Source: Planctomycetales bacterium 71-10 | GTDB lineage: Bacteria > Planctomycetota > Planctomycetia > Isosphaerales > Isosphaeraceae | Assembly (NCBI GenBank): GCA_001898385.1 | Contig: MKTT01000076.1 | Span: 1 to 64,000 of the forward strand | Direction of reading: 5' to 3' | DNA length: 64,000 nucleotides | Shown: positions 8,411 to 60,321 of the stretch, in pieces | Numbering within the stretch: position 1 is the first letter of the stretch | Layout of the letters: each line of letters begins with the position of its first letter | Program-made: the position numbers and the translations under genes | Notes under the pieces: model-generated | Databases searched by the model: none | Seen by the model: the letters and a program-made list of their open reading frames with translations, nothing else | What the model was told of the DNA's origin: nothing

Positions 8411-9499
8411 TCAGTAGGAATCGGCGCTGACGATCTCGCCGCCGGAGATCGAGTTCAGCCCCAGCCAGACGGGCATGCTCACGCTGTTCTTCACGAACCG
8501 GACCGAGCCGTCGCCCATCATCGCGTTGACGCCCCCGGCGTGCCGGCTCCTCGCCCCCGCGAACGCCCGCTTGTCGCCGGCCCCGCCGGCGCAGGGGAGG
8601 CCCTGGACGGGCTCGCTGACGCACAGGGGGATCTGGTTCAGGAAGTCGCCGCCGTTAGGCGGGTTCACGGGCAGCCGATAATAGTCGGTCGGATTGTTGG
8701 GCGCGAGCCTCGCCATGAATGAGCCGCCGCCGGGGATCGTCGACCACATCATCCCCCGAAGGTCGAAGGTGGCCCCCTGGAGGATCTCGGCGGCGAAGAC
8801 CGTGTTGCTCGTCCCGTCGGTCACCGAGGCCACGCTCGTCGTCTCGAACCCGAACGCCGACTTCATGTGGTTGGGTAGGCCGCCGGTGACCGGGTCGACC
8901 ATCGGGCTGTATCCGGCCTGCGTGTCCTGGCCCCAGTGCAGGTTGCCCCAGCTCGCCGCGTAGTTCCCCTTGGTGAACTTCAGGGCGTTGACCGCGGCCA
9001 CCGGGACGAAATCCGGGCTGACCTGCCACTGGTTGATGCGATCGCTCGGGCACTGGAACGTGCTCAGCTTCGTGAGCGAGACCGTGTTGTTCACGAAGAT
9101 GCCCATCGGGATGCTCCCCGTCTCGGGCCCCTCCGCCCCGATCTGATAATTGTAGGCGTTCCCCAGCGCCCCCTGCTCGATGTACGGCAGCATCAGGCAG
9201 AACCAGGGGGTGTTCTGGCAGCTCGAGAAGACGTTCGTGCCGCACGGCGTGGGATCCGCCGGCGCCAGGACCTGGCCCACGCCGCGGATATTCCCCGTCG
9301 GGAAGCTCCCGACCGTCGAATGATAGTTGTGCATCGCCAACCCGAGCTGCTTCAGGTTGTTCGTACACTGGGCGCGACGCGCGGCCTCGCGCGCCGCCTG
9401 GACGGCCGGTAGGAGGAGGGCGATGAGGACGGCGATGATCGCGATCACCACCAGCAGCTCAATCAATGTGAACGCGCGCGCCTTCGAAGTCCTGAGCAT
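8411..9499 (-). CDS. DUF1559 pseudopilin-like protein with H-X9-DG motif
   Basis: 362 aa. The N terminus is a type IV prepilin-like leader and hydrophobic helix ([19 protein letters not shown]), followed by the planctomycete-specific [19 protein letters not shown] segment. The C terminus has the family signature: H, nine residues, DG ([17 protein letters not shown]). Planctomycetes carry many such paralogues, and their function is unknown. The start was set at 9499 because AGGAG lies about 9 nt upstream and the leader then has usual length; an open frame extends 32 codons further. A second family member lies at 19813-20841. Confidence 0.88.
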
Positions 9500-9805
9500 G
9501 GGACGGAGGCTCCTGAATGCGTTGTACGGGAGAGGGCGATCGATGCGATGGATGCGAGCCGACATGCCCCTCGCCATCGAGGGGTTCAAGATCAACCTAC
9601 CAATCCGGGACCGGGATGGCGAGCGTGAAATCCTATGGATTTCGACTTTTCATCATCCCTGCACTCCGGCTTCGCGATTAAGGCGGCCGATGCCCGGTCG
9701 CGATGGCGTCGGCGGCCCGAAAAGGCGATGATGGAGGCCCCGCGCGGGCCGACGTCGGCCCTTCCGGTCGGGTCGGGACGGATCGACGAGAGGAGCATCC
9801 CAGCG

Positions 9806-10726
9806 GTGGTCGACTTGCGCGTGAGCCTGGGCCGGTTGGAGTTGAGGAACCCGGTCCTGACGGCGTCCGGGACGTTCGGCTACGTCCGCGAGATGGCGGG
9901 CTTCGTCCGGCTCGACCGCCTCGGCGGGGTGGTCCCCAAGACGGTGACCCAGCGCCCGAGGGCGGGCAACCCGACGCCCCGGACCGTCGAGACTCGCGCG
10001 GGCCTGCTCAACGCGATCGGCCTGGACAACGACGGCATCGACCACTTCCGCGAGCATCACCTGCCCTACCTGCGGACGATCGGGACGGCGGTCGTGGCGA
10101 ACATCGCCGGCGAGGACGAGGACCAGTTCGTCGCGATGGCCGAGGCCCTGGGCGGTGAGCCCGGCCTGGCGGCGGTCGAGCTGAACGTCTCCTGCCCGAA
10201 CGTCAGCCACGGCCTCGACCTGGGCGTCGACGCCGCCGCCGTCGGCCGGCTGGTCGGCCGGGTCCGGGCGGCCTGCCCGCTGCCGATCCTCGCCAAGCTC
10301 ACCCCGAACGTCACCGACATCGTCCCGATCGCCGCCGCCGCCGCCGAGGCCGGGGCCGACGCGGTGACGCTCATCAACACCGTGCGCGGGATGGCGATCG
10401 ACTGGCGCCGCCGACGGCCGATCCTCGCCAACGACGTCGGCGGCCTGAGCGGCCCGGCGATCAAGCCGATCGCCCTGCGGATCGTCTGGGACGTCGCGCG
10501 GGCCTTGCCCGGCCTGCCCATCGTGGCCGTCGGCGGGATCGCCGACGCCGACGACGCGCTGGAGTTCCTCGTCGCCGGCGCCTCGGCCGTCCAGGTGGGC
10601 ACCGCCACCTTCTACAACCCCCGCGCGGCCGAAGACGTCCTCGACGGCATGACCCGACGCCTCGACGAGGCGGGCGTCGCGAACGTCGGCGAAGTCATCG
10701 GCGCGGGCCGGTCGAACCGGGAGTGA
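9806..10726 (+). CDS. pyrD: dihydroorotate dehydrogenase, type 1B catalytic subunit
   Basis: 306 aa with a GTG start preceded by GAGAGGAG; the open frame extends upstream, but this start gives the usual class 1B length. PyrD oxidises dihydroorotate to orotate in pyrimidine synthesis using FMN. Visible hallmarks are the N-terminal LRNPVLTASGTFGY, the substrate loop with catalytic Cys (ELNVSCPNVSHG), KLTPNVTDI, and the C-terminal phosphate-binding GGIADADDALE and VQVGTATFYNP. Class 1B enzymes usually pair with an iron-sulphur PyrK subunit; no pyrK lies beside it here. Confidence 0.93.
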   Translation: MVDLRVSLGRLELRNPVLTASGTFGYVREMAGFVRLDRLGGVVPKTVTQRPRAGNPTPRTVETRAGLLNAIGLDNDGIDHFREHHLPYLRTIGTAVVANIAGEDEDQFVAMAEALGGEPGLAAVELNVSCPNVSHGLDLGVDAAAVGRLVGRVRAACPLPILAKLTPNVTDIVPIAAAAAEAGADAVTLINTVRGMAIDWRRRRPILANDVGGLSGPAIKPIALRIVWDVARALPGLPIVAVGGIADADDALEFLVAGASAVQVGTATFYNPRAAEDVLDGMTRRLDEAGVANVGEVIGAGRSNRE

Positions 10727-10734
10727 CTGGACGT

Positions 10735-11286
10735 TCAGCGACGGACGAGCAAGAGGATGGGGGCCAGCGCCACTCGGCAGGCCGCGCCGGCCAGGATGAA
10801 TGCCACGGCCCCGACCATCGCGGCCCCGATCTGGTCCTCGCCCGGATGCGCCGACAGGCCGGACGCCTGGGCCCAATGGACGACGACCCCGGACAGCCCG
10901 CCGATCATGAGCAGCCTGATCTTGGGGAGCGGGCCGAAGATCCAGGCGATCGCGGTGAAGAGGCCCAGGGTCGCCAGCAGCACGGCGGCCGTCGCCCCGG
11001 CGCAGGCGACGCCCACGACCGCCGCGGCGACGATCCCCGCGTATAGGCCGCCGGTGACGCCGCCGAAGGCGCCCGCCACCAGCGCGGCCATCAGCCCGAC
11101 CGCCATCGCGACGCCCCAGATGCTCCCCTCGCCCCCACCCCCGCCGCCGGAGTAGGACGTCGTCGGCTGCGCGGCCCTGGCGCGATCGGCCTGGCCGTTC
11201 CAGTAGCCGACGACCTCCAGGGCCGACTGCGGGGCACCCGTCGACCAACCCGAGTAGCCCGCCTGGTAGCCTCGGTCGTAGCTCAC
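10735..11286 (-). CDS. predicted multi-pass membrane protein of unknown function
   Basis: 183 aa. The N terminus (SYDRGYQAGYSGWSTG) is Tyr/Gly-rich and hydrophilic, followed by a short Gly run. Four or five hydrophobic Ala/Gly/Val-rich segments then fill the rest (from GSIWGVAMAVGLMAALV to AFILAGAACRVALAPIL). The GTG start at 11286 has GAGGGGGGA upstream; the frame stays open further but with no plausible protein. It converges on pyrD with an 8-nt gap. No family is recognised. Membrane localisation is inferred from hydrophobicity alone. Confidence 0.6.
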   Translation of the reverse strand: MSYDRGYQAGYSGWSTGAPQSALEVVGYWNGQADRARAAQPTTSYSGGGGGGEGSIWGVAMAVGLMAALVAGAFGGVTGGLYAGIVAAAVVGVACAGATAAVLLATLGLFTAIAWIFGPLPKIRLLMIGGLSGVVVHWAQASGLSAHPGEDQIGAAMVGAVAFILAGAACRVALAPILLLVRR

Positions 11287-11554
11287 GCGTCCCCCCTCAC
11301 GTCGGACGAAGACGTTCCTCCCCCGGCCGCAACTTCGCGGCGTCAGTATGGATCGACGACGGCGAGGCCCCGGCTTAAGGCGATCCGCGGCCGTCCTGAC
11401 GCGTCGCGCGGCCAATCGCCCCGCCCGGCATCGTCGCTCCTCGCCTCGCGCAACGGGAGGCGGGCGCGCCATGATCCTTGAGGGGATGGTAGATGAGGGG
11501 TGCATTACAAGAGTCCCGCCCGGTGGCCGACCCCCGTCCTGAGATGAGACCGTC

Positions 11555-14254
11555 ATGCACCGCAGGATCCCGCTCGCCCGGGCCACGCCTCGCCGACGGC
11601 CCGTGCGGCGTCTGCACTTCGACCCCCTGGAGCTGCGGGCCGTCCCCAGCGCCGCGGCCGAGTTCGCCGCGGCCTTCCCGCTCGGCGGCGCCGATGGGAC
11701 GGTGACCGTCCGCAAGGCGATCGCGGGATACAGCGAAGGGCCGGTCGTCGTCGGGTCGTTCACGGGGACCGTCGACTTCGACCCCGGCCCCGGCGTCTTC
11801 AACCTCACGAGCGCCGGCGGGGAGGACGCCTTCGTCGCGCGCTATGATCGGATGGGCCGCCTGCAATGGGCCCAGCGGTTCGGCGGCGAGGGTGACGACC
11901 GGGCGAACGACGTCATCGCCCCCTACAACGGCGACGTCACCGTCGTCGGATCGTTCTCCGGCACGGTCACCTATCGAGATCACGTCACCTGGTACGAATT
12001 CCATCAAATCCAGAGCGAGGGGGGGACTGACGCCTTCGTACTGGCCATGAGCCCGTACACCGAAGGCGAGTTCCGATACGTCAGGTCCTTCGGCGGCGCG
12101 GGGGACGACGAGGCGAATGGGCTGGCCTACTCGTCGTATGGCGACATGGTGATCGTCGGATCGTTCTCCGGCACGGCGAACTTCGACCCGTACTATCGCC
12201 TGGCCGGGTCGCCCCACACGTTGACCTCGGCGGGGGGTACGGACGCCTTCCTGCTCTCCATCGGCATGGGGGCCTCCTGGTGGGAGCCGTCGTCCGTGGT
12301 GGTCCGCGCGGGGGGGCCCGGCGACGACGCGGCGCTGGCGGTCAACTGGGACCGCAGCGGCGGCGACTCCTTCAGCCCCGGGAACGGCCTGCCCATCCTG
12401 GGGACGTTCACGGGGACGGCCGACCTCAGCTTCGAGGACGGGCTCCACGTCGCGACGTTCTACACCCGCGAGGGGCCCGACTACCGCACCAGCGCCGGCG
12501 GCCGGGACGTCTTCGTGGCCCGGGTGGTCGGGGGCTCGATCGAGCCGGTGTTCCTCAAGACCTTCGGCGGCCCCGGCGACGAGAGGCCGACGGCCCTGAC
12601 CATCGTCAATGAAGGGGCGACGGCGTATTCCCAGGGCCATTTCTATTACTACGTCGCCGGCGCATTCGAGGGCGAGGCCCGGTTCGACGACGGGGCCGCG
12701 GGCGGTCGCGTCTCGGCCGGCGGGTCCGACGGCTTTCTCGCCCGCTACGACGCCCACGACGGCGCGCTCGACTGGGTCGCGACCCTGGCCGGGCCGGGGG
12801 ACGACTCGGTCGAGGTCATCGTCTCCGACTCGACGGGGGTCTCCGCGACGGGAGGGTTCACCGGCGGCCTGGACTTCGACCCGGGCGCGGGCGCGACCGT
12901 CCTCCAGGGCGGAGCGGCCGGCTCGGCCTTCCTCTGGAGGCTGACCGGCGACGGCGCCCTCGATTCGGCGCGGGCCTTCGGGGGGGGCGGATCGTCGCGG
13001 GGCCTCGGCCTGACCTATGTGGGATGGGACGAATTCTTCGTCGCCGTTCGATTCGCCGGACCCGTCGACTTCGACCCGGGCCCGAAGACGAGCCTCGTCG
13101 CCTCGACCGGCGCGTCGGACGGATTCTTCGCCAAGTTCCAGACGATGCCGGACATGCTCCCGATCGCCGGGGATGATATGTACCGGGTGACGGCCGGTCA
13201 GGAGCTGGCGGTCCAGCGGTACGACTCCTGGGGCTACGGGCCGATCCCGGGCGGCCTCCTCGTCAACGATCGCACCCGCCGGGGCACCGATTCGGGGGTG
13301 GTCCAGCGGCTCACCTTCACGAAAGGCGGCTACTTCACCGTCTGGGAGTACAGCGGGGCGTTTTCCTACGAGCCCGTCGCAGGGTTCGCGGGCGTCGACT
13401 CGTTCACGTACCAACTCCGAGACGGCGACCTGCTGTCCAACGTCGCGACCGTCTCCTTCGACGTGGTCCCGGCGGGCCCCGCGCCCGCGGCCCGGTCCGA
13501 TCACGCGGTCGACCTCGGCACGGGCGGCGTGTGGAGTTGGTCGGCCGTCGGCGGCTGGGCCCAGGTCTCCACCCTTGATGCGGAGGGCGTGGCCACCGGG
13601 CCGGACGGGCGGATCTACCTCGACCTCGGCCCGCGCGGCCTCTGGTCGTGGGCCGACGGCGGCTATCGCAAGATCAACGAGGCCGACCCCCAGGCGATCG
13701 TCGCCGGCCCGGACGGCTCGCTCGCGGTCGACTACGGCCCGTACGGCCTCTGGACCTGGTCGGGCGACGTCGTGAGCCGGCTCAACGCCGCGGATCCGGA
13801 GGGGGCCGTGTTCGCCCCCGACGGCTCGCTCTACGTCGATTACGGCCGCTACGGGCTCTGGGCCTGGCGCCGGGGGGCCGGATTTCGGCAGGTCAACGCC
13901 GCGGACCCCGAGGGCCTCGCCGCGGGCCCGGGCGGCGTCCTCTACGTCGACTTCGGCCCGTTCGGGCTGTGGGATTATCGCGACGGCCGGGGCTTCCTCC
14001 GGTTGAACGACGCGAACGCCCGGTCCCTCGCGGTCGCGGCCGACGGCACACTGCTCGCCGACTTCGGCCCATACGGCCTCTGGGCTCGCCGCGAACTCTC
14101 CGGCTTCGTCCGATTGAACGCCGCGGCCCCCCGCAGGATGGCCCTCGGCTCCTCGGGCGTCCTCTACGTCGACTTCGGCGCCGAGGGCTACTCCCGATGG
14201 CTCGACGGCGGCTTAAGCCGGATCGCCCACGCCGGGCCCGGCTCCCAGGTTTGA
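11555..14254 (+). CDS. large secreted protein: LEPR-XLL-like N terminus, SBBP-like repeats, cadherin-like domain, C-terminal tandem repeats
   Basis: 899 aa. The Arg-rich N terminus with FDPLELRAVPSA resembles the planctomycete LEPR-XLL motif. Residues about 55-530 hold repeats of the pattern GSFTGTVDFDPGPG...TSAGGEDAFVARYD...FGGEGDD, like SBBP/beta-propeller blades. A cadherin/VCBS-like domain follows (DDMYRVTAGQELAV to FTYQLRDGDLLSNVATVSF). From about 650 to the end there are seven repeats of about 36 residues with the core DxGPYGLWxW...LNAADPEG...PDGSLYVD, suggesting a second propeller. It is probably exported and surface-associated. The 3' end overlaps the convergent methyltransferase gene by 42 nt. 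Confidence 0.85.
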   Translation: MHRRIPLARATPRRRPVRRLHFDPLELRAVPSAAAEFAAAFPLGGADGTVTVRKAIAGYSEGPVVVGSFTGTVDFDPGPGVFNLTSAGGEDAFVARYDRMGRLQWAQRFGGEGDDRANDVIAPYNGDVTVVGSFSGTVTYRDHVTWYEFHQIQSEGGTDAFVLAMSPYTEGEFRYVRSFGGAGDDEANGLAYSSYGDMVIVGSFSGTANFDPYYRLAGSPHTLTSAGGTDAFLLSIGMGASWWEPSSVVVRAGGPGDDAALAVNWDRSGGDSFSPGNGLPILGTFTGTADLSFEDGLHVATFYTREGPDYRTSAGGRDVFVARVVGGSIEPVFLKTFGGPGDERPTALTIVNEGATAYSQGHFYYYVAGAFEGEARFDDGAAGGRVSAGGSDGFLARYDAHDGALDWVATLAGPGDDSVEVIVSDSTGVSATGGFTGGLDFDPGAGATVLQGGAAGSAFLWRLTGDGALDSARAFGGGGSSRGLGLTYVGWDEFFVAVRFAGPVDFDPGPKTSLVASTGASDGFFAKFQTMPDMLPIAGDDMYRVTAGQELAVQRYDSWGYGPIPGGLLVNDRTRRGTDSGVVQRLTFTKGGYFTVWEYSGAFSYEPVAGFAGVDSFTYQLRDGDLLSNVATVSFDVVPAGPAPAARSDHAVDLGTGGVWSWSAVGGWAQVSTLDAEGVATGPDGRIYLDLGPRGLWSWADGGYRKINEADPQAIVAGPDGSLAVDYGPYGLWTWSGDVVSRLNAADPEGAVFAPDGSLYVDYGRYGLWAWRRGAGFRQVNAADPEGLAAGPGGVLYVDFGPFGLWDYRDGRGFLRLNDANARSLAVAADGTLLADFGPYGLWARRELSGFVRLNAAAPRRMALGSSGVLYVDFGAEGYSRWLDGGLSRIAHAGPGSQV

Positions 14255-14998
14255 CACGGCCCCCGTCCGTGAAGGCCGGCGGAACACGCGATAGATCGTC
14301 CCCGGCCGGCGCTCGCCGGCCTCGTCGACGGTCGACGTCGCCTCGGCCTCGCAGCCGAGCCCGCGCGGCGGGAGTTCGGCGGGGAAGTCCTCGGCCGAGG
14401 CGCGGTAAGGCGTCGCCAGGATCGCCTCACCGCCGGGGGCGAGGAGCTTCGCCAGCACGTCGGCGACCAGCGGCACGAGCTTCCGCTCGTAGAGCACATC
14501 GGCCGCGATGATCCGCGCGAACGATAGCGGGGGGGGCTCGCGCCAGTCGAGGAGGAGGTAGTCGGCCCGCTTCTCCGGCAGCCCGCCCTCGGCGACGCTC
14601 CGCCGGATGAAGGCGAAGGCGGCGGGGTCGTAGTCGCTGAACCGGACCCGGAACCCCAGCGCCAGGGCGGCGAGCCCGCCCAGGCCCAGGCCGCAGCCCA
14701 GTTCCAGGACCTCGTCGTCGCCCGGGTCGACGCCGCCCCAGCGGTCGAAGACCGCCTCGGCGAGCATCCGCGCGCCGGGCCAGAGGTAGGCCCAGTAGGG
14801 CATGTAGTCGTCGGCCTGGTTCCGGGCGTGGACCGCGGGGTCGTCGAGCAGGCGATCGGGCTCGACGGGACGAGCCAGGCGCAGGGCGCGGCCGGCGATT
14901 GCGAACGTCGAGACGGTCGTCGGTCCCCGGTATTCGGGCGGGCTTGACGGCGACCCTAGAGTTGGAACGGGATGCAACGGCGACGGTTTATGGATCAA
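14213..14998 (-). CDS. class I SAM-dependent methyltransferase
   Basis: 261 aa. Motif I is VLELGCGLGLGGLAALALG; motif II is FSDYDPAAFAF; then LLLDWREPPPLSFARIIAADVLYE and LAPGGEAILATP. The MPYWAYLWPGARMLAEAV segment before motif I is typical of the NNMT/METTL (protein lysine methyltransferase-like) group, so the substrate may be a protein, but this is inference. The start ATG lies only 17 nt from the divergent thioesterase start, so regulatory sites of the two genes must overlap. The 3' end overlaps the convergent gene. Confidence 0.82.
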   Translation of the reverse strand: MIHKPSPLHPVPTLGSPSSPPEYRGPTTVSTFAIAGRALRLARPVEPDRLLDDPAVHARNQADDYMPYWAYLWPGARMLAEAVFDRWGGVDPGDDEVLELGCGLGLGGLAALALGFRVRFSDYDPAAFAFIRRSVAEGGLPEKRADYLLLDWREPPPLSFARIIAADVLYERKLVPLVADVLAKLLAPGGEAILATPYRASAEDFPAELPPRGLGCEAEATSTVDEAGERRPGTIYRVFRRPSRTGAVSNLGAGPGVGDPA

Positions 14999-15015
14999 CG
15001 GAGGTCGACTCGACG

Positions 15016-15543
15016 ATGGACGTGCCCAGGAGCGAGGATCCCATGGCCCCCCGCGCGGCGGTCGATTCCCGCGTGAGCCTCGCGATCCTCACCGTGCCGG
15101 GCGACGCGAACCCGTTCGGGACCCTGCACGGCGGGGTCATGCTGCGGATGGCGGACGAATGCGGCGCGGTCTCCGCCCTGCGGCACGTCGGCCGGGGGCA
15201 GGTGACGACGGCCGCGATGGACTCCATGACGTTCCTGTGCCCGGTGTACGTCGGCGAGCGGGTGGAGATCGTCGCCGAGGTCACGCACGCCGGCCGGACG
15301 TCGATCGAGACCCGCATCGAGATCTACGCCGAGGCGCTCCAGCACCCCGGCCGCCGCAAGGTCGGCTCGGGCTACGCGCTGTACGTGGCGCTCGACGACG
15401 AGGGGAAGCGGCCCCACGAGGTGCCGCCGCTCCTCTCCGTGACCGAGGCCGATCGGATCCGCGACGAGGCGGCGGCCGAACGGCAGGCGGTCCGCCTGGC
15501 CCGCCGCGAGGAGGCCAGGCGCCACAGCCGCGAATTCCTCTGA
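15016..15543 (+). CDS. acyl-CoA thioesterase, hotdog fold (YciA-like)
   Basis: 175 aa. The hotdog-fold signature of BACH/YciA-type thioesterases is clear: NPFGTLHGGVMLRMADECGA, then TTAAMDSMTFLCPVYVGERVEI and TSIETRIEIYAE. These cytosolic enzymes hydrolyse acyl-CoA to free acid and CoA. The start at 15016 has GGAGG about 11 nt upstream; ATG at 15043 is an alternative. The C-terminal 25 residues are Arg/Glu-rich and outside the domain. Confidence 0.88.
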   Translation: MDVPRSEDPMAPRAAVDSRVSLAILTVPGDANPFGTLHGGVMLRMADECGAVSALRHVGRGQVTTAAMDSMTFLCPVYVGERVEIVAEVTHAGRTSIETRIEIYAEALQHPGRRKVGSGYALYVALDDEGKRPHEVPPLLSVTEADRIRDEAAAERQAVRLARREEARRHSREFL

Positions 15544-15553
15544 CCCGGGCCGA

Positions 15554-15886
15554 TCAGGCCGGGGCCGAGGGGGTCGACTCCGCCGGCGTGGTCGTGGAGA
15601 CCGCGCCCGGGACCTCGAACTTGGGGACCGACTCGTCGACGGTCGAGGTCGACGGCCGGGGGGCGTCGTAGGTCATGGACGGCTTCGGGGCCTGGTACGG
15701 CGAGGTGTAGCTGGAGATCGACGAGGAGGCGTCGTCGAGGCCGCTGGTGACCTCGTTGAGCCCCTTCTTGAACTCGACGATCCCCTTCCCCAGGGACCGG
15801 CCCACCTCGGGGAGCCGCTTGCCGAACAGCAAGACGGCCAGCCCCATCACGATCATCATCTCCATCGGCCCGAGATTCGGCAGCAT
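15554..15886 (-). CDS. tatA: TatA/E-family twin-arginine translocase subunit
   Basis: 110 aa. The N-terminal helix (MEMMIVMGLAVLLFGKRLPEV) and the following amphipathic helix (GRSLGKGIVEFKKGLNEV) are classic TatA, with the FGxxxLPE turn. The C-terminal half is a Ser/Thr/Pro-rich tail without structure. TatA forms the pore-associated oligomer for export of folded proteins. It lies 61 nt downstream of a second TatA gene on the same strand. tatC is not in the window. Confidence 0.92.
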   Translation of the reverse strand: MLPNLGPMEMMIVMGLAVLLFGKRLPEVGRSLGKGIVEFKKGLNEVTSGLDDASSSISSYTSPYQAPKPSMTYDAPRPSTSTVDESVPKFEVPGAVSTTTPAESTPSAPA

Positions 15887-15947
15887 GCGGCAGGCTCCTC
15901 GGTTCGTGCGAGCGGTCGCGGGTCGGATCGGCTCGGATCGGCTCGGA

Positions 15948-16160
15948 TCAGGGGGCGGGCGGGGTGATCTTCTTGTCGGCCGCGTTGACGGCCTCGTCCA
16001 GCTCGTCCTCGATGCCGGCGACCCCCTTCTTGAACTCGGTGACGCTCTTGCCGAGCGATCGCATCACGCTGGGGAGGCGGTTGCCGAACATCAGCAGGGA
16101 GACGAACGCCACGACGAGCAGCTCGGTGGTGCCGAGGTTGGGCAGGAACGCGAAGGGCAT
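15948..16160 (-). CDS. tatA: TatA/E-family protein, second copy
   Basis: 70 aa. It keeps the TatA plan: short N terminus, hydrophobic helix (TTELLVVAFVSLLMFGNRLP), FGxxLP turn and amphipathic helix (SVMRSLGKSVTEFKKGVAGI). It is shorter than its neighbour and lacks the Ser/Pro tail. The shared SLGKxxxEFKKG segment suggests a tandem duplication. Whether one copy acts as TatB cannot be decided from sequence: the polar residue typical of TatA position 8 and the Glu of TatB are not distinctive here. Confidence 0.9.
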   Translation of the reverse strand: MPFAFLPNLGTTELLVVAFVSLLMFGNRLPSVMRSLGKSVTEFKKGVAGIEDELDEAVNAADKKITPPAP

Positions 16161-16224
16161 GGGTGGGTCCTCGGTCGGTCGGATCGATTCGGGTGGAGTC
16201 GGGGTCGGGTCGGTGGGGATCAGG

Positions 16225-16509
16225 TCAGGGCGTCGGGCCGGCGGCGATCAGGGTCCGCGTGACGATCCAGGCGGCGACGGCCGCGGCGGCGATCAGCGTC
16301 AGGCCCCAGAAGAGTCGGCCCCCGCGCGTCAGCGACGCCCCGAAGACGCGCCGGCGCGACGCCGGGGTAGGAGTGCGCCTCGACGTCCGGCGGACGGGGC
16401 TGATCCAGGGCATGACCGTCCGGGCGCGATCGCTCTTGAGCACGCCGGAGCGCCCGTAGAGCGCCAGGGCGACCATCGCGATCAAAACCAGTTCGCGGAA
16501 GCCGATCAT
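16225..16509 (-). CDS. small two-helix membrane protein with TatA-like N terminus
   Basis: 94 aa, ATG at 16509 with GAGG 6 nt upstream. The first helix (MIGFRELVLIAMVALALYGR) resembles a TatA N terminus, but the FG-LPE turn is replaced by YGRSGVLKSDRAR. An Arg-rich segment follows, and a second hydrophobic helix (LFWGLTLIAAAAVAAWIV) ends the protein, which TatA does not have. It lies on the same strand just upstream of the two tatA genes, so it may be a diverged Tat component or accessory. No family is firmly recognised. Confidence 0.6.
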   Translation of the reverse strand: MIGFRELVLIAMVALALYGRSGVLKSDRARTVMPWISPVRRTSRRTPTPASRRRVFGASLTRGGRLFWGLTLIAAAAVAAWIVTRTLIAAGPTP

Positions 16510-17142
16510 CGCGCCTCGCCCGTCGCTCGGGGGGGTAAGCTCGGGGGCCTCCGGGCGAGGACGCCGGGGCGAAGGCCCTTGCGGGGCGGGGGGCCGGGGG
16601 ATGTACGCACACGGGACGCCGCCGCGTTGATGGGGGCCGACAGATCGGCGCCGACCATAGGCCATTGCGTCTCGACAGGGACGACGCGGGTGGGCTGCTG
16701 ACTTCACCTCAATCGTACCGCCCCCCGCCCCCCTGTCAATCCCCCGGCCTCGCACGCGGCCCTCGGCCCGGCGTGACCTCGCGCGCGGCGTGACGGCCCG
16801 TCGCGTCGCCGCGACGCGACGGCCCCGCCCGGCGTCGCCCCCGATCATCGTCGCGCAGCCGCCGGCGCGTCGCCGGATCTCCCCGACGTTGAACTTCGTC
16901 ATCCACGCATCGTGCCACCCGCGGCCGGGCCCTAGAGTTCGCTCGTCCCGACCGCCGAGCCGCAGGGCCGCCGCCCGAGGCCGACGCGAGAGGACGAGCG
17001 GGAGCGGAACGGCGGACGATGCGGCCGAGAGGGGCCGCGAGGCGGGTGGCGATCGACGGTTCGCCGGCAGAAGCCGGCGGCGACGCCCCGGCCGCTCAGA
17101 GGACGAGCTGGGAGAGAGGTCGAAACAGCAAGGAATCGAAGT
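16510..17142. other. intergenic region between divergent tatA-like and PEP-CTERM genes
   Basis: About 630 nt without a supported gene. The minus-strand frame stays open through most of it but gives an Arg/Gly-rich translation typical of antisense or non-coding GC-rich DNA, with no domain. The region should carry divergent promoters for the genes on both sides. I see no strong sigma-70 match, repeat or riboswitch. Confidence 0.5.
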
Positions 17143-17814
17143 ATGAAGATTTGGAAACTGGTCCTGGCCCTGGGCGTCCTCCTGGCGGCTGCCGCGCGGT
17201 CCGACGCGGGGAGCATCGCGATCACCGACCTGTACAACACCGGCGTCGACGCGGCCCATAACCCCCTGGCGAACGGCGCGATCGACAACCACTACACCCT
17301 CTCGACCAACCCCTCGGGCGTCACGACCCCGATCGTCTACCGCAACCCCGCGTGGGTCGCGAACGCCCCGGCCTCCGGGAGCGACCTGGCCGCCCAGTGG
17401 ATCGCCCCCTCCTCGTCGAGCGTGCCCGATGGCACCTACACCTACACCACCAGCTTCACCCTCGGCGCCGGCGCCCTCATCCCGAGCGTCGAGATCGGCG
17501 GCCGGTTCACGGCCGACGACCAGATCATCAACGTCTATCTCAACGGCCACGCCCTGGGGATCGGGACGAGCGGCGACGAGATCTACGGCCACTGGTTCAA
17601 CTTCTCGATCGCCAACTCGGCCTACTTCCTCGCCGGGACGACGAACTACCTGGCCTTCGAGACCAAGAACACCCACGGCTCGGTCAACGGCCTCATCGTC
17701 CAGATGACCGGCTCGTACAACGCGGTCCCCGAGCCCGCCTCGGTCGCCATGATGGGCCTGGGGGGCGTCGCGGCCCTGGCCTTCGGCCGCCGCCGGATCA
17801 AGGCCCGCGCCTGA
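17143..17814 (+). CDS. PEP-CTERM sorting-domain protein
   Basis: 223 aa. A signal peptide (MKIWKLVLALGVLLAAAARSDA) precedes a mature region of about 165 residues with no recognised catalytic motif. The C terminus is a full PEP-CTERM sorting signal: VPEPAS, a hydrophobic helix (VAMMGLGGVAALAFG) and the basic tail RRRIKAR. Such proteins are processed by exosortase and usually end up in the extracellular matrix or on the surface. No exosortase gene lies nearby. A perfect 18-bp hairpin follows the gene. Confidence 0.9.
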   Translation: MKIWKLVLALGVLLAAAARSDAGSIAITDLYNTGVDAAHNPLANGAIDNHYTLSTNPSGVTTPIVYRNPAWVANAPASGSDLAAQWIAPSSSSVPDGTYTYTTSFTLGAGALIPSVEIGGRFTADDQIINVYLNGHALGIGTSGDEIYGHWFNFSIANSAYFLAGTTNYLAFETKNTHGSVNGLIVQMTGSYNAVPEPASVAMMGLGGVAALAFGRRRIKARA

Positions 17815-17835
17815 TCCCGGCCCGCCGCCGTTCCT

Positions 17836-17875
17836 GCGACGCGGCCCGAGGAGGCGACTCCTCGGGCCGCGTCGC
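17836..17875. terminator. perfect 18-bp inverted repeat, probable bidirectional terminator
   Basis: Two exactly complementary 18-nt arms (17836-17853 and 17858-17875) enclose a GCGA tetraloop. The hairpin lies in the 72-nt gap between convergent genes, 21 nt after one stop codon and 11 nt from the other. There is no clear T-run on either side, so it may stop transcription with Rho or act as an RNA 3'-end stabiliser. Confidence 0.75.
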
Positions 17876-17886
17876 TTCGAACGGGC

Positions 17887-19056
17887 TCAGACGATCACGC
17901 GCAGCGCTCGCAGCCGGCGGGCGGCCTCGTCCAGCGTCTCATCCCGCTTGCAGAAGCAGAAGCGGACGTAGGAGCGGCCCAGCTCCTTGTCGCGGAAGAA
18001 GCTCGAACCGGGGACGGTCGCCACGCCGACCTCGCGCACGAGCTTCCCCGCGAACGCCACGTCGTCGTCCGCCCCGAACGGGCCGATGCCGGCCATGATG
18101 TAGTACGCCCCCTGGGGCGCGTCGAACTCGAAGCCCACGTCCCAGAGCGCCTTGCAGAAGCGGTCGCGGCGGGCCTGGTAGCCGGCGGCGAGGTCGTCGT
18201 AGTAGGAGCGAGGGAGCCGGTAGGCGACCGCGCCCGCCTCCTGGAGCGGGGCCGCCGCGCCGATCGAGACGAAGTCGTGGACCTGGCGGAACGCCTTCGT
18301 CATCCGAGGCGGGGCCAGGATCGTGCCGACGCGCCAGCCGGTCACGGAGTAGGTCTTGGACATCCCCCCCACCGTCACCGATCGCTCCCACATGCCGTCG
18401 AGCGACGCCAGCGCGACGTGCCGCCGGCCGTCGAAGAGGATGTGCTCGTAGATCTCGTCGGTGATCGCGATCGCGTCCCACTTGCGGCAGAGGTCGGCGA
18501 TGACCTCCAGGTCCTCGCGCGCGAAGACAGCCCCGGTGGGGTTCGTGGGGTTGCAGAGGACGATGGCCTTCGTCTTGTCGTTGAACGCGGCGGCCAGCTC
18601 GTCGGGGTCGAACTTCCAGTGCGGCGGGCGGACGGGGACGAACCGGGGCGTGGCCCCGGCGAGCATGCAGTCGGGCCAGTAGTTCTCGTAGAAGGGCTGC
18701 GAGAGGATGACCTCGTCGCCCGGGTTGATGAGGGACAGCAGCGCGACGAGCATCGCCTCGGTGCTGCCGCAGGTGACGGTGATCTCCTCTTCCGGGTCGA
18801 CCGCCAGCCCCAGGTGCCAGGCGGCGTGCTCGGCGATGGCGTGGCGGAGGTCGTGGGCTCCCCAGGTGATCGCGTACTGGTTCACGTCGTCCTGGATGGC
18901 GCGGCAGGCGGCGTCCTTGAGGGCCTGGGGGGCGGGGAAGTCGGGCATCCCCTGCGCCAGGTTGACGGCCCCGTGGCGGCGGGCCTCGATGGACATGCCG
19001 CGGATGACGCTGTCGGTGAACCGCTGGGCCTTCAGGGAGATCAACGGGTTCTGCAT
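17887..19056 (-). CDS. PLP-dependent class I/II aminotransferase
   Basis: 389 aa, full length for fold-type I AAT-like enzymes. Hallmarks are NLAQGMPDFPAPQ, the QYAITWGAHDLRHAIA substrate segment, CNPTNPTGAVF, DEIYEHILFDG, and the PLP-binding lysine in GGMSKTYSVTGWRVG. The C-terminal SYVRFCFCKRDETLDEA contains the substrate-carboxylate Arg. Overall it is closest to the aspartate/kynurenine/methionine aminotransferase group; the exact amino donor cannot be told. The gene stands alone, convergent with the PEP-CTERM gene. Confidence 0.9.
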   Translation of the reverse strand: MQNPLISLKAQRFTDSVIRGMSIEARRHGAVNLAQGMPDFPAPQALKDAACRAIQDDVNQYAITWGAHDLRHAIAEHAAWHLGLAVDPEEEITVTCGSTEAMLVALLSLINPGDEVILSQPFYENYWPDCMLAGATPRFVPVRPPHWKFDPDELAAAFNDKTKAIVLCNPTNPTGAVFAREDLEVIADLCRKWDAIAITDEIYEHILFDGRRHVALASLDGMWERSVTVGGMSKTYSVTGWRVGTILAPPRMTKAFRQVHDFVSIGAAAPLQEAGAVAYRLPRSYYDDLAAGYQARRDRFCKALWDVGFEFDAPQGAYYIMAGIGPFGADDDVAFAGKLVREVGVATVPGSSFFRDKELGRSYVRFCFCKRDETLDEAARRLRALRVIV

Positions 19057-42727: not shown

Positions 42728-43180
42728 TCAGCTCGGGTTGACGACGGCGAGCCCTTCAAGGGCCGCCACGTCGCAGAGCCGTTGATCGGCACAGACGAAG
42801 CCGTCGAGGGGCTGAGTCCGATGGGCCTTGAGTGCGACTGCGAGTTGGAGGGCGTCGAGGGTCCGAATCTGACGGTTCGGTCCATACGTGGTGACGAGGT
42901 CTGATGCCAGTTGATAGGGGGAGTTGAGCACTCGCAGCGGACGCAGGATCTTTCGCTTCACGTCGGCCAGGAACAGGCCGCGAAGCCGTTGAAACTCCTG
43001 TGCCAGGATGAGCCCGGTTCGCACCTTCGTGGCGAACCCGGACAGGGTTTCGACCCACGCCAATCGGGAGATGAAAATCTCGGCCCCGGGCTCTGACAGG
43101 AGGCGTTGGACTTCCGCCGTCCCGCTCTCGACGTGGTAATTCTTGATGAGGGCGCTCGTGTCGAAGAAGTATCGGGGCAT
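42728..43180 (-). CDS. vapC: PIN-domain toxin (VapC-like)
   Basis: 150 aa. The four acidic PIN residues can be placed: D7 (YFFDTSALIKNY), E44 (AWVETLSG), D109 (TLDALQLA) and D132 (VCADQRLC). PIN toxins are Mg-dependent RNases. The start codon overlaps the antitoxin stop (TGATG), the usual toxin-antitoxin coupling. The pair is less GC-rich than its neighbours, consistent with horizontal transfer. Confidence 0.9.
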   Translation of the reverse strand: MPRYFFDTSALIKNYHVESGTAEVQRLLSEPGAEIFISRLAWVETLSGFATKVRTGLILAQEFQRLRGLFLADVKRKILRPLRVLNSPYQLASDLVTTYGPNRQIRTLDALQLAVALKAHRTQPLDGFVCADQRLCDVAALEGLAVVNPS

Positions 43181-57085: not shown

Positions 57086-57856
57086 ATGTCCGCAGGAAAA
57101 ATGGAAAATGTCGCGGTGATCCCGGCGCGGTTCGCTTCCACCCGCCTCCCCGGCAAACCCCTCCTGTCCGACACCGGGAAGCCCCTCATCCAGCACGTCG
57201 TCGAGGCCGCGCGACGCGCGAAATCGCTGCGACGCGTGATCGTCGCCACGGACGACGAGCGCATCGCCGACGCCGTGCGCCGCTTCGGCGGCGAGGTCGC
57301 CATGACCCGCGCCGACCACCCGACGGGCACCGACCGCGTGGCCGAGGTGGTCGCGACGATCCCCGAGGCCGGCATCATCGTCAACGTCCAGGGCGATGAG
57401 CCCGAGATCGACGGATCGACGATCGATCGCCTGATCACACTATTAGAAGAAGACCCCGACGCCCCGATGGCCACGCTCGCCACGCCGATCCGCGACGAGG
57501 CCGTCTACCGCGACCCCTCGTGCGTGAAGGTCGTCGCCGCGCGCCACCGCGCCCTCTACTTCTCGCGCAGCCCCATCCCCCACCACCGCGACGGCTCGCC
57601 CGACTTCTCCGACCCCGCCGCCCCCGCGGCCTTCCTCCACCTGGGCCTCTACGCCTACCGCCGCGACTTCCTCCTCACCGTCGGCACCCTCCCCCGCTCG
57701 CCGCTGGAGGCCGCCGAGAAGCTGGAGCAGCTCCGCGTCCTGGAGGCCGGCCTCCCCATCGCCCTCGGATTCGTCGACGAGCCCTCCATCGGCGTCGACA
57801 CCCCCGACGACTACCGCCGCTTCGTCGACCGCTGGCGCGCGCGAAATCCGGGGTGA
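57086..57856 (+). CDS. kdsB: 3-deoxy-manno-octulosonate cytidylyltransferase
   Basis: 256 aa. KdsB activates Kdo to CMP-Kdo for lipopolysaccharide core synthesis. The motifs are strong: VIPARFASTRLPGKPL, PLIQHVVEAARRAK, VIVATDDERIADAV, DHPTGTDRVAEV, VNVQGDEPEI, FSRSPIPHHRDG, HLGLYAYRRDFL and EKLEQLRVLEAGLPI. Length is standard. It supports a Gram-negative type outer membrane. Other Kdo genes are not adjacent. Confidence 0.96.
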   Translation: MSAGKMENVAVIPARFASTRLPGKPLLSDTGKPLIQHVVEAARRAKSLRRVIVATDDERIADAVRRFGGEVAMTRADHPTGTDRVAEVVATIPEAGIIVNVQGDEPEIDGSTIDRLITLLEEDPDAPMATLATPIRDEAVYRDPSCVKVVAARHRALYFSRSPIPHHRDGSPDFSDPAAPAAFLHLGLYAYRRDFLLTVGTLPRSPLEAAEKLEQLRVLEAGLPIALGFVDEPSIGVDTPDDYRRFVDRWRARNPG

Positions 57857-57907
57857 TCGAGCCGACGTCCATCCGACATCTAAGGTCGACCGATTACGCC
57901 CTGGGTT

Positions 57908-58423
57908 TCACGCCACATCCCAGGGTATACGTCCCTGTGTTGCGATCTCGATCACCAGCGGGTGAGGATCAATCGCTTTCACGCGCCTACGAAGGTCCAT
58001 CTGTACTTTGGCCGGGTCGATCGCGCGCGGGAACAATTTCGACGGATTGTCTGGTTGCTCCAGGTGCAGGACCACCCGAAGGTTGTCGGCACGCAACGCG
58101 CGCCTGGCCGCTTCCCGCTCCTTCGGGTCGCTCGCACGGATCTGGGCCGCAGCCACCCCCGCCAGCGTGTTTCGGACCTTGTCGACGATCTCGACCGCCA
58201 GGTCGATCGCCTTGGTGCGGCGATGCCGACGATAGTCCTTCACCTCGACGAGCCAGCAGCATGAAGACGGAGACGGCGATATTGCGAGGATGTCGACCCC
58301 CTTGACGCCGTCCATCATCCTGACGAACTGCTGACGATAGTGGGCCCAATCGTCGTATTTCGAGGCATGCCATCCGTTATGAAATGTAAATCCCAGCTGC
58401 CCTTCACGGATCTTCGCCATCAT
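57908..58423 (-). CDS. PD-(D/E)XK-nuclease-like protein, partner of AAA ATPase
   Basis: 171 aa, no named family recognised. A D-X15-E-X-K pattern (D44 in GVDILAI, E60-V-K62 in WLVEVKDYRRH) sits between two predicted beta strands, the layout of the PD-(D/E)XK nuclease core. Helices rich in Arg/Asp follow (LAVEIVDKVRNTLAGVAAAQIRA), then LRVVLHLEQP. Nuclease activity is inference. The start ATG overlaps the stop of the AAA ATPase gene (ATGA), so the two are made together. The pair is less GC-rich than neighbours, as expected of acquired DNA. Confidence 0.72.
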   Translation of the reverse strand: MMAKIREGQLGFTFHNGWHASKYDDWAHYRQQFVRMMDGVKGVDILAISPSPSSCCWLVEVKDYRRHRRTKAIDLAVEIVDKVRNTLAGVAAAQIRASDPKEREAARRALRADNLRVVLHLEQPDNPSKLFPRAIDPAKVQMDLRRRVKAIDPHPLVIEIATQGRIPWDVA

Positions 58424-59472
58424 CGGACGCCCTGGGCGAGGTAGCGGTCCGATTGGCTCAATTCTTCGCTGAGCGAGTCGATATCTCCCACATCATCGAT
58501 GGACTCGCCCTGTTCGAGGGCCACGCCCCCGGGGGCTGGGTGCAAGCCGATGAACCGGGTCTCCACGTCGGCGAACTCCGCTCCACCGGCCAAGATGTCG
58601 AGCTCTCGCAGCAGGAACAGGCTATGGGTTGCGACGAAGACCTGAATCCCCGCCGCGCAAAGGCCCAGGATCGTCCGCGCGACGAGCTTGATCACCTTCG
58701 GATTGAGGTTGGCCTCCGGCTCGTCCCAGTAAAGCGACCCCGCGCCCACGAGCGATCTTGTCGCGATCAATCGTGCGATCATCGCCAGTTTTCGCAATCC
58801 CTCTGCGACCAGGTGCGCCTCCAGGTCGCCCGCGGGGGTCTCCACGTAGAATCGATCGTTCCTGCCCAGCACGACCTTGCCCCCTAACTCCTCCTCAAGA
58901 GGGGTCGCCAGCCCCTCCAAAGGGCGAGGTCGCACGCCCCTGGTGGCTGGGACTCCGAGCAGCAAGCAGGTATCTCGCCAGGTCTCTTCGATTTCGAGGT
59001 CGGTCGTCTCATAGAGCGAGACAAATCCCGGGTAAATGGATAGCAACTCGCGACTGGGAAGGAACACCGGGGGATGGTCGGCCCACCGTCTCGGGAGCGA
59101 GATGACGTTCACTTCCGACTTGCTGTTCGTATTGAAGTGGAACGACAACGGGTGCGATTTCGGCTCGAACACCGCCTCGACCTCGCATCGGCTTCGCCCC
59201 TTCCGCCGGCTCGCCAGGCGACCCAACTCCTCAGGGCGGAAGACGCGACGGAGTTTGCGGGCGATCTCTCCCTCCAGGTACTTCTTGGTGGGGGCGGGCG
59301 GGAGGGCGTCGCGCTTGAGCGGTGAGACGACCGATTGGACGCAATACGCCGCTTTCAAGGCATGCGACTTCCCTGCCCCGTTCTCTCCGATGACGACGTT
59401 CAAGCCGGAGCAGAGCCGGAAATCCGCATCGGCGAAGACGGTGAAGTTCCTCAGGGTCAGGCGAGATAGCAT
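58420..59472 (-). CDS. AAA/ABC-type ATPase of the AAA_21 (OLD/RecF-like) group
   Basis: 350 aa; ATG at 59472 follows AAGGGGA. The N terminus MLSRLTLRNFTVFADADFRL is typical of RecF/OLD/AAA_21 proteins. Walker A is GENGAGKS (29-36). Residues about 40-240 hold an insertion with few known motifs. A signature-like LVAEGLRKLAMIARL (from 221) precedes Walker B SLYWDEPEANLNPK (from 246) and the H-loop VFVATHSLFLLRELD (from 278). There is no Toprim domain, unlike OLD nucleases. The downstream gene supplies a probable nuclease. ATPase plus nuclease pairs of this form are common in anti-phage systems (Septu, PARIS, AbiL-like). Confidence 0.88.
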   Translation of the reverse strand: MLSRLTLRNFTVFADADFRLCSGLNVVIGENGAGKSHALKAAYCVQSVVSPLKRDALPPAPTKKYLEGEIARKLRRVFRPEELGRLASRRKGRSRCEVEAVFEPKSHPLSFHFNTNSKSEVNVISLPRRWADHPPVFLPSRELLSIYPGFVSLYETTDLEIEETWRDTCLLLGVPATRGVRPRPLEGLATPLEEELGGKVVLGRNDRFYVETPAGDLEAHLVAEGLRKLAMIARLIATRSLVGAGSLYWDEPEANLNPKVIKLVARTILGLCAAGIQVFVATHSLFLLRELDILAGGAEFADVETRFIGLHPAPGGVALEQGESIDDVGDIDSLSEELSQSDRYLAQGVR

Positions 59473-59622
59473 CACGTCCCCTTGGTGGTGCTCGATGTCT
59501 GGGAGTCGGGACGAGGCCGCCGCGACGCAGTTCCAGCCCATTGTAATCTCGAGCCCGCGCCCACGCGATGCGACGGGGTCGGGGGCCCGGCTGGCATAGC
59601 TGCGGGGAATTGGGGCCTCGAC

Positions 59623-60321
59623 TCAGGGCCGTCCCGTGCCTTCCAGCGCCGCGACGATCGCGTCGGCGATGGCCTTCATGCCGTGGTCGCCGGGATGGCC
59701 GGCGACGCCTTCGTGCTTGTAGGGGCGTTCGGAGCGGGCGGCGTTGGCGGGGTCGCGGCCGAGGTGGGCGATGTCGAGGAAGACGGCGTCGGCCTCCTTC
59801 GCGGCGGCGCGGAGGCGGGCGTCCTTGGACTCGACGGGCCAGAAGCAGCTCCGGACGAGGACGATCGGCCGTCGGCCGTCGCGACGGACGCCTTCCAGGA
59901 TCTTCGCCACGCCGGCCTGGAACTTCGCCGCGTCCTCGGGCGAGGCGAACTCGGGCGTGTTCTCGCCGATCGCCAGGACGACGAGGTCGGCGTCGAAGGC
60001 GAACAGGTCCTTCATCTTCTCGGCGACGTCGTAGTCGGCGTAGCCGCGTTCGAAGTCGGCGATGTTCCGGACGAGGGTCTCGGGCTCCTTCCCCGCACGC
60101 TTCGCCACGGCCGCCGTGACCAGGTGGACGTAATCCTTCTCGGGCGCGGTGGCCGCCATGCCCCAGTCGCCGTGCCAGTCGATGTGGGGCGCGGGGCCGT
60201 GGCGGGTGATGCTGTTCCCCAGGAACAGGATCTTGCGCACCTCCGACAGCTTCGGACCCTCCGCGCCCGCCGTCCCGATCACGCCCGCCGCCAGCACCGC
60301 CAGCCAGAGCCCGCGTCTCAT
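59623..60321 (-). CDS. secreted SGNH/GDSL-type hydrolase
   Basis: 232 aa; ATG at 60321 follows GGGAGGG. A signal peptide (MRRGLWLAVLAAGVIGTAGA) precedes the SGNH fold. Block I is LFLGNSITRHG with the nucleophile Ser, block III is VVLAIGENTPEF with the Asn (and Gly before it), and block V is HPGDHGMKAIADAI with the catalytic His three residues after Asp. Substrate is probably an ester on a polysaccharide, but that is inference from planctomycete paralogues. Confidence 0.88.
   Translation of the reverse strand: MRRGLWLAVLAAGVIGTAGAEGPKLSEVRKILFLGNSITRHGPAPHIDWHGDWGMAATAPEKDYVHLVTAAVAKRAGKEPETLVRNIADFERGYADYDVAEKMKDLFAFDADLVVLAIGENTPEFASPEDAAKFQAGVAKILEGVRRDGRRPIVLVRSCFWPVESKDARLRAAAKEADAVFLDIAHLGRDPANAARSERPYKHEGVAGHPGDHGMKAIADAIVAALEGTGRP

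Follow-up and report, generated by a model that had tools for sequence, protein, structure and literature searches.

WonAB, from the Vibrio cholerae WASA-1 prophage, is a two-gene pair of an ABC ATPase and a PD-(D/E)XK nuclease and a validated anti-phage system that stops translation: both genes are needed, ATP-site and nuclease-site mutants are inactive, the toxicity of the nuclease depends on the ATPase, and DNA stays intact while translation is halted (PMC12137116). C-terminal extensions of WonA bind WonB, and two further systems, PD-T4-4 and an operon of an OLD-ABC ATPase with a novel REase, are described as related (PMC12137116). In Septu (PtuAB, also found as the effectors of retron Ec78/Eco7) a PtuA-type ATPase is joined to the HNH nuclease PtuB, and in PARIS the ATPase AriA is joined to the Toprim nuclease AriB. 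The HEC systems are Hma-embedded candidates (PMC10855318; PMC12988326), of which HEC-05 and HEC-06 function independently (PMC11411939).

The window analysed here, a stretch of 64,000 nucleotides from Planctomycetales bacterium 71-10, carries two genes that very probably are a solo copy, acquired by horizontal transfer, of the candidate anti-phage module HEC-02, and whose role is probably defensive. They encode a PtuA-like ABC ATPase and a protein of PD-(D/E)XK fold with an intact catalytic triad, overlap, are inherited together, and recur in Hma operons or beside defence genes. The features of the locus are as follows.

57908..58423, minus strand: HEC-02 nuclease gene (predicted), 171 aa, PD-(D/E)XK fold with D44-X15-E60-X-K62 (PADLOC PDLC04145, AlphaFold model)
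58420..59472, minus strand: HEC-02 ATPase gene, 350 aa, PtuA/Rad50-type ABC ATPase, AAA_21 (PADLOC PDLC04146, Pfam, AlphaFold model)
58420..58423, minus strand: 4-base ATGA stop/start overlap of the ATPase and nuclease genes (read from the sequence)
58714..58737, minus strand: Walker B region SLYWDEPE, ATPase residues 246-253 including D250 and E251; W249, D250, E251, P252 and E253 invariant
59365..59388, minus strand: Walker A motif GENGAGKS, ATPase residues 29-36; G29, N31, G34 and K35 invariant in alignments
57833..59662, no strand: segment bounded by kdsB and the GDSL-hydrolase gene and replaced by 82 bp in the congener G395 (BLASTN of the window against L059-L063)

The coordinates, strand, 171-aa length, overlap and D44-X15-E60-X-K62 spacing given in the initial annotation are all exact, and the ATPase has, as described there, intact Walker A, Walker B and H-loop (ATHS) motifs and a single catalytic domain. 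Its longest open reading frame starts at 59541, so that 59472 corresponds to M24 of that frame; the latter start is supported because homologues and the profile match begin there and AAGGGG lies just upstream. A scan for promoters and terminators at the pair found no signal above shuffles. A chance open reading frame is ruled out by full-length profile matches, conserved linkage and an excess of substitutions at third codon positions.

Against the PADLOC models, the ATPase matches HEC-02B (PDLC04146) with E 6.1e-133 over profile positions 1-342 of 344, and the small protein matches HEC-02A (PDLC04145) with E 3.9e-63 over positions 1-168 of 170. Both component models are thereby matched by genes adjacent on one strand with a 4-base overlap, in the order of the catalogued system, and judged from these matches the pair is HEC-02, not a new kind of bacterial immune system. 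HEC-02 was reportedly defined in a preprint of Payne et al. 2024; among accessible papers, a search by name gave nothing relevant and no report of an HEC-02 assay was found. The initial annotation had called for such a PADLOC search and had seen a distinct, perhaps undescribed, defence pair. Its coupling of an ATPase to a PD-(D/E)XK-fold protein, the linkage and the recurrence at defence loci stand, and the idea of an undescribed pair is corrected, by the full-length matches of both proteins and by the ABC-ATPase/PD-(D/E)XK defence pairs already known (PMC12137116). Likewise out of date is its view that the partners in ATPase/nuclease pairs are HNH, Toprim or other types, since that of WonAB is a PD-(D/E)XK enzyme (PMC12137116).

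Beyond HEC-02, the ATPase matches Pfam AAA_21 at 1.5e-17, and its next-best PADLOC models, all far weaker, are AriA, mad3, PD-T4-4_A, AbiLi and PtuA. Its AlphaFold model (pLDDT 85) is an SMC/Rad50/PtuA-type ABC head without a second catalytic domain, to which PtuA of Septu aligns over residues 1-350 with Z 18.2-18.5. The likeness to known systems ends at the partner protein in three cases. The Septu nuclease PtuB is an HNH enzyme, whereas the partner here has a PD-(D/E)XK fold and does not match the PADLOC PtuB models at E up to 1; PARIS resembles the pair through its ATPase (AriA model matched at 6.7e-19), but AriB is a Toprim nuclease and the small protein has no AriB match in PADLOC at E up to 1; PD-T4-4 is also an operon of ATPase and nuclease (PD-T4-4_A matched at 1.2e-12), but no PD-T4-4_B model of PADLOC is matched by the small protein at E up to 1. 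WonAB, likened here by its described layout, shares both kinds of partner, and differs in the C-terminal extensions by which WonA binds WonB, the HEC-02 ATPase being a compact protein of 350 aa (PMC12137116).

The small protein has no match in Pfam, NCBIfam or PHROG, and a sequence search for solved relatives found none that was credible. Among 24 homologues, residues E60, K62, D63, Y64, W57 and K82 are invariant and D44 is nearly so, the clear exception being an alanine in L027, where the ATPase gene is broken. The AlphaFold model, built from a 24-row alignment (pLDDT 87), sets D44 just ahead of strand 45-48 and both E60 and K62 within strand 55-63, a predicted placement that is the classic PD-(D/E)XK hairpin. 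The comparison with restriction-endonuclease folds suggested in the initial annotation bears this out: in a second look at the matches from Foldseek, AF1548 was best (Z 6.8), the others including FokI (6.4), McrC (5.5) and HamA (5.2), and all 19 chains with Z of 5 or more are PD-(D/E)XK enzymes or domains, with no competing fold at that level. These chains represent AF1548, FokI, the P. abyssi repair endonuclease, Cdn1, BstEII, BsmI, the BspD6I nickase, XisH, McrBC, Can2 and HamA. The nuclease Mus81, the top match in Foldseek itself, where no match fell below E 0.001, belongs to the same superfamily. Because the Z scores are moderate (6.8 at best) and the Foldseek E-values weak, fold and motif carry the claim together; on both, the small protein is a predicted nuclease.

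Linkage of the homologues in other genomes, which the initial annotation had set as a test, proved consistent. When only the nuclease was used as query against 84,980 species genomes, 25 loci were found, many of them from Akkermansia and so not independent. In 24 of these the ATPase gene is the next one upstream, in the same orientation; the exception lies at a contig edge, its match beginning at base 3 of the contig. Close or overlapping spacing of the two genes is seen repeatedly. The spread is patchy: 392 genomes of the phylum gave 3 with a match to the nuclease model, and 59 near relatives gave 7 with the ATPase. The pair also occurs in other members of the window's family and on two plasmids, of Pseudanabaena and Paracoccus.

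Five relatives of the pair lie between HmaB and HmaC (L004, L010, L051, L052 and L058), and the one in the congener G394 has the order HmaA-HmaB-ATPase-nuclease-HmaC; the window copy, by contrast, stands alone outside an Hma operon, embedding being a property of the HEC-02 family, and the source of its name, that is not required of each copy. Other defence genes also occur nearby: L004 holds a PtuA gene within the same cluster as the pair, plasmid L039 has PDC-S68 and a restriction enzyme of type IIG near it, and in L054 a type II methyltransferase adjoins it. Beside six solo loci (L006, L008, L009, L012, L022 and L024) no PADLOC match was found among the one or two neighbouring genes tested at each, so not every HEC-02 copy sits in an island.

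This context raises the alternative that the pair is an Hma accessory with little function outside Hma, the window copy being an orphan remnant. A tree of the ATPases nests the window copy among Hma-embedded ones: its planctomycete group (100/99), whose finer internal order is not firm, includes three such copies and at least one solo copy. Its own genome offers only a distant HmaC-like DUF499 protein. We nevertheless consider a remnant improbable: many intact solo copies exist across several phyla, neither window gene is disrupted and their differences from relatives fall mostly at third codon positions, and HEC-05 and HEC-06 work alone despite being embedded (PMC11411939).

Two larger clusters were seen in passing. 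In L038 (6341-14498, the Pseudanabaena plasmid) the pair lies in a run with genes for GrpE, an Hsp70-like protein, DUF1257, DUF2997, an IetA-like AAA protein and one further protein that matches a HEAT/ARM retron model in part; the run may be a larger defence operon, as yet uncharacterised. The window's own genome has, in L065 (contig C134:9000-28000, at about 9470-18922), a distant Hma-like cluster of a DUF499 ATPase (30% to HmaC), a DUF7680 protein, an AAA_21 ATPase, an HmaB-like region (26%) and an HmaA-like helicase fragment, in which an AAA_21 ATPase again lies between HmaC-like and HmaB-like genes.

In the window the pair lies, as originally described, between kdsB (a CTP_transf_3 protein) and a hydrolase gene, of the GDSL type by a match slightly below the Pfam cut-off, and is indeed less GC-rich than the housekeeping genes around it: GC is 0.605/0.631 against 0.71 in both neighbours and in the whole window, and GC3 is 0.73/0.80 against 0.91 in kdsB and about 0.95-0.98 in several other housekeeping genes. 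Elsewhere in the window, a PIN-domain protein at 42728-43180 (minus strand; GC 0.625, GC3 0.77) is likely also acquired and perhaps a VapC-like toxin. The kdsB and GDSL-hydrolase genes are adjacent in four congeners (G395, G392, G396 and G393), none of which has the pair at that site: the interval is 82 bp in G395, against 1,830 in the window, and holds a ParD-like antitoxin gene in G392 and PEP-CTERM proteins in G396 and G393. The junction (57857-59622 in the window, with equivalents in L059-L062) is a variable cargo site in the genus. In G394 the pair lies 3.4 Mb from that genome's own kdsB, inside the Hma operon. Since the site is empty or otherwise occupied in four congeners and the G394 pair is elsewhere, the most economical interpretation is gain of the pair at the window site, not inheritance in place. 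A prophage or phage origin was set aside: phage records contained nothing that matched the pair, and a pattern search of viral contigs was also negative, though with a strict pattern and hence as weak evidence.

A toxin-antitoxin or addiction module, in which the ATPase only neutralises the nuclease and has no role in infection, would fit the overlapping two-gene layout with a small potential toxin, the antitoxin gene that occupies the same site in a congener, and the toxin-antitoxin pair that adjoins HEC-02 on the Paracoccus plasmid. It is nonetheless quite improbable, for the ATPase, an ABC enzyme, is conserved and keeps all its catalytic motifs, the pair is repeatedly embedded in Hma, and the toxicity of the WonAB nuclease needed its ATPase, which speaks against simple sequestration (PMC12137116). 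A role in chromosomal repair, as a complex akin to SbcCD or RecF, hinted at by the Rad50/SMC likeness of the ATPase head and a weak RecF profile match far below cut-off, is highly implausible for a mobile, defence-linked pair of patchy spread and low GC, at a site that lacks it in four congeners, whose second member is not an Mre11-type phosphatase.

For the defensive module that we favour, the most likely scheme, drawn from analogous systems, is one in which a sensor ATPase holds a nuclease effector and then activates it during infection. The ATPase would oligomerise and keep the nuclease in an inactive complex, detect a phage-associated trigger through its own ATP-dependent state and then switch on the nuclease, whose cutting of nucleic acid would stop or abort the infection, on the pattern of WonAB and Septu. 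A more specific proposal, tentative and rather unlikely as a whole, is that HEC-02 is autonomous, enters and leaves Hma operons, and has an ATPase that senses infection and activates a PD-(D/E)XK enzyme that cuts tRNA or rRNA and not DNA; an RNA-cutting HEC-02 would, if real, be a second PD-(D/E)XK case of translation shut-off beside WonAB. That the catalogued, Hma-embedded HEC-02 also exists solo and intact, a small mobile cargo in a chromosomal site of variable content, speaks for a self-sufficient function; the pair also offers a compact two-gene test case of how ABC-ATPase sensors drive nuclease effectors.

Relatives of the pair vary in both build and integrity. Apparently decayed copies occur in L027 (Trueperella), with a split ATPase gene and the nuclease Asp replaced by Ala, in L008 (Holophagae), with a frameshifted nuclease, and in L056, with an internal TAG in the ATPase and no nuclease found, the state of the copy in G410, a relative in the window's family. 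Some HEC-02 nucleases (for example L004:10004-10582 and L006:9428-10015) carry a Cys-rich, zinc-ribbon-like insert of about 25 residues with CxxC-type pairs just before the catalytic Asp, which the window nuclease lacks, and those of Akkermansia (L011-L026) are extended at the C-terminus by about 80 residues, a charged stretch that is absent elsewhere.
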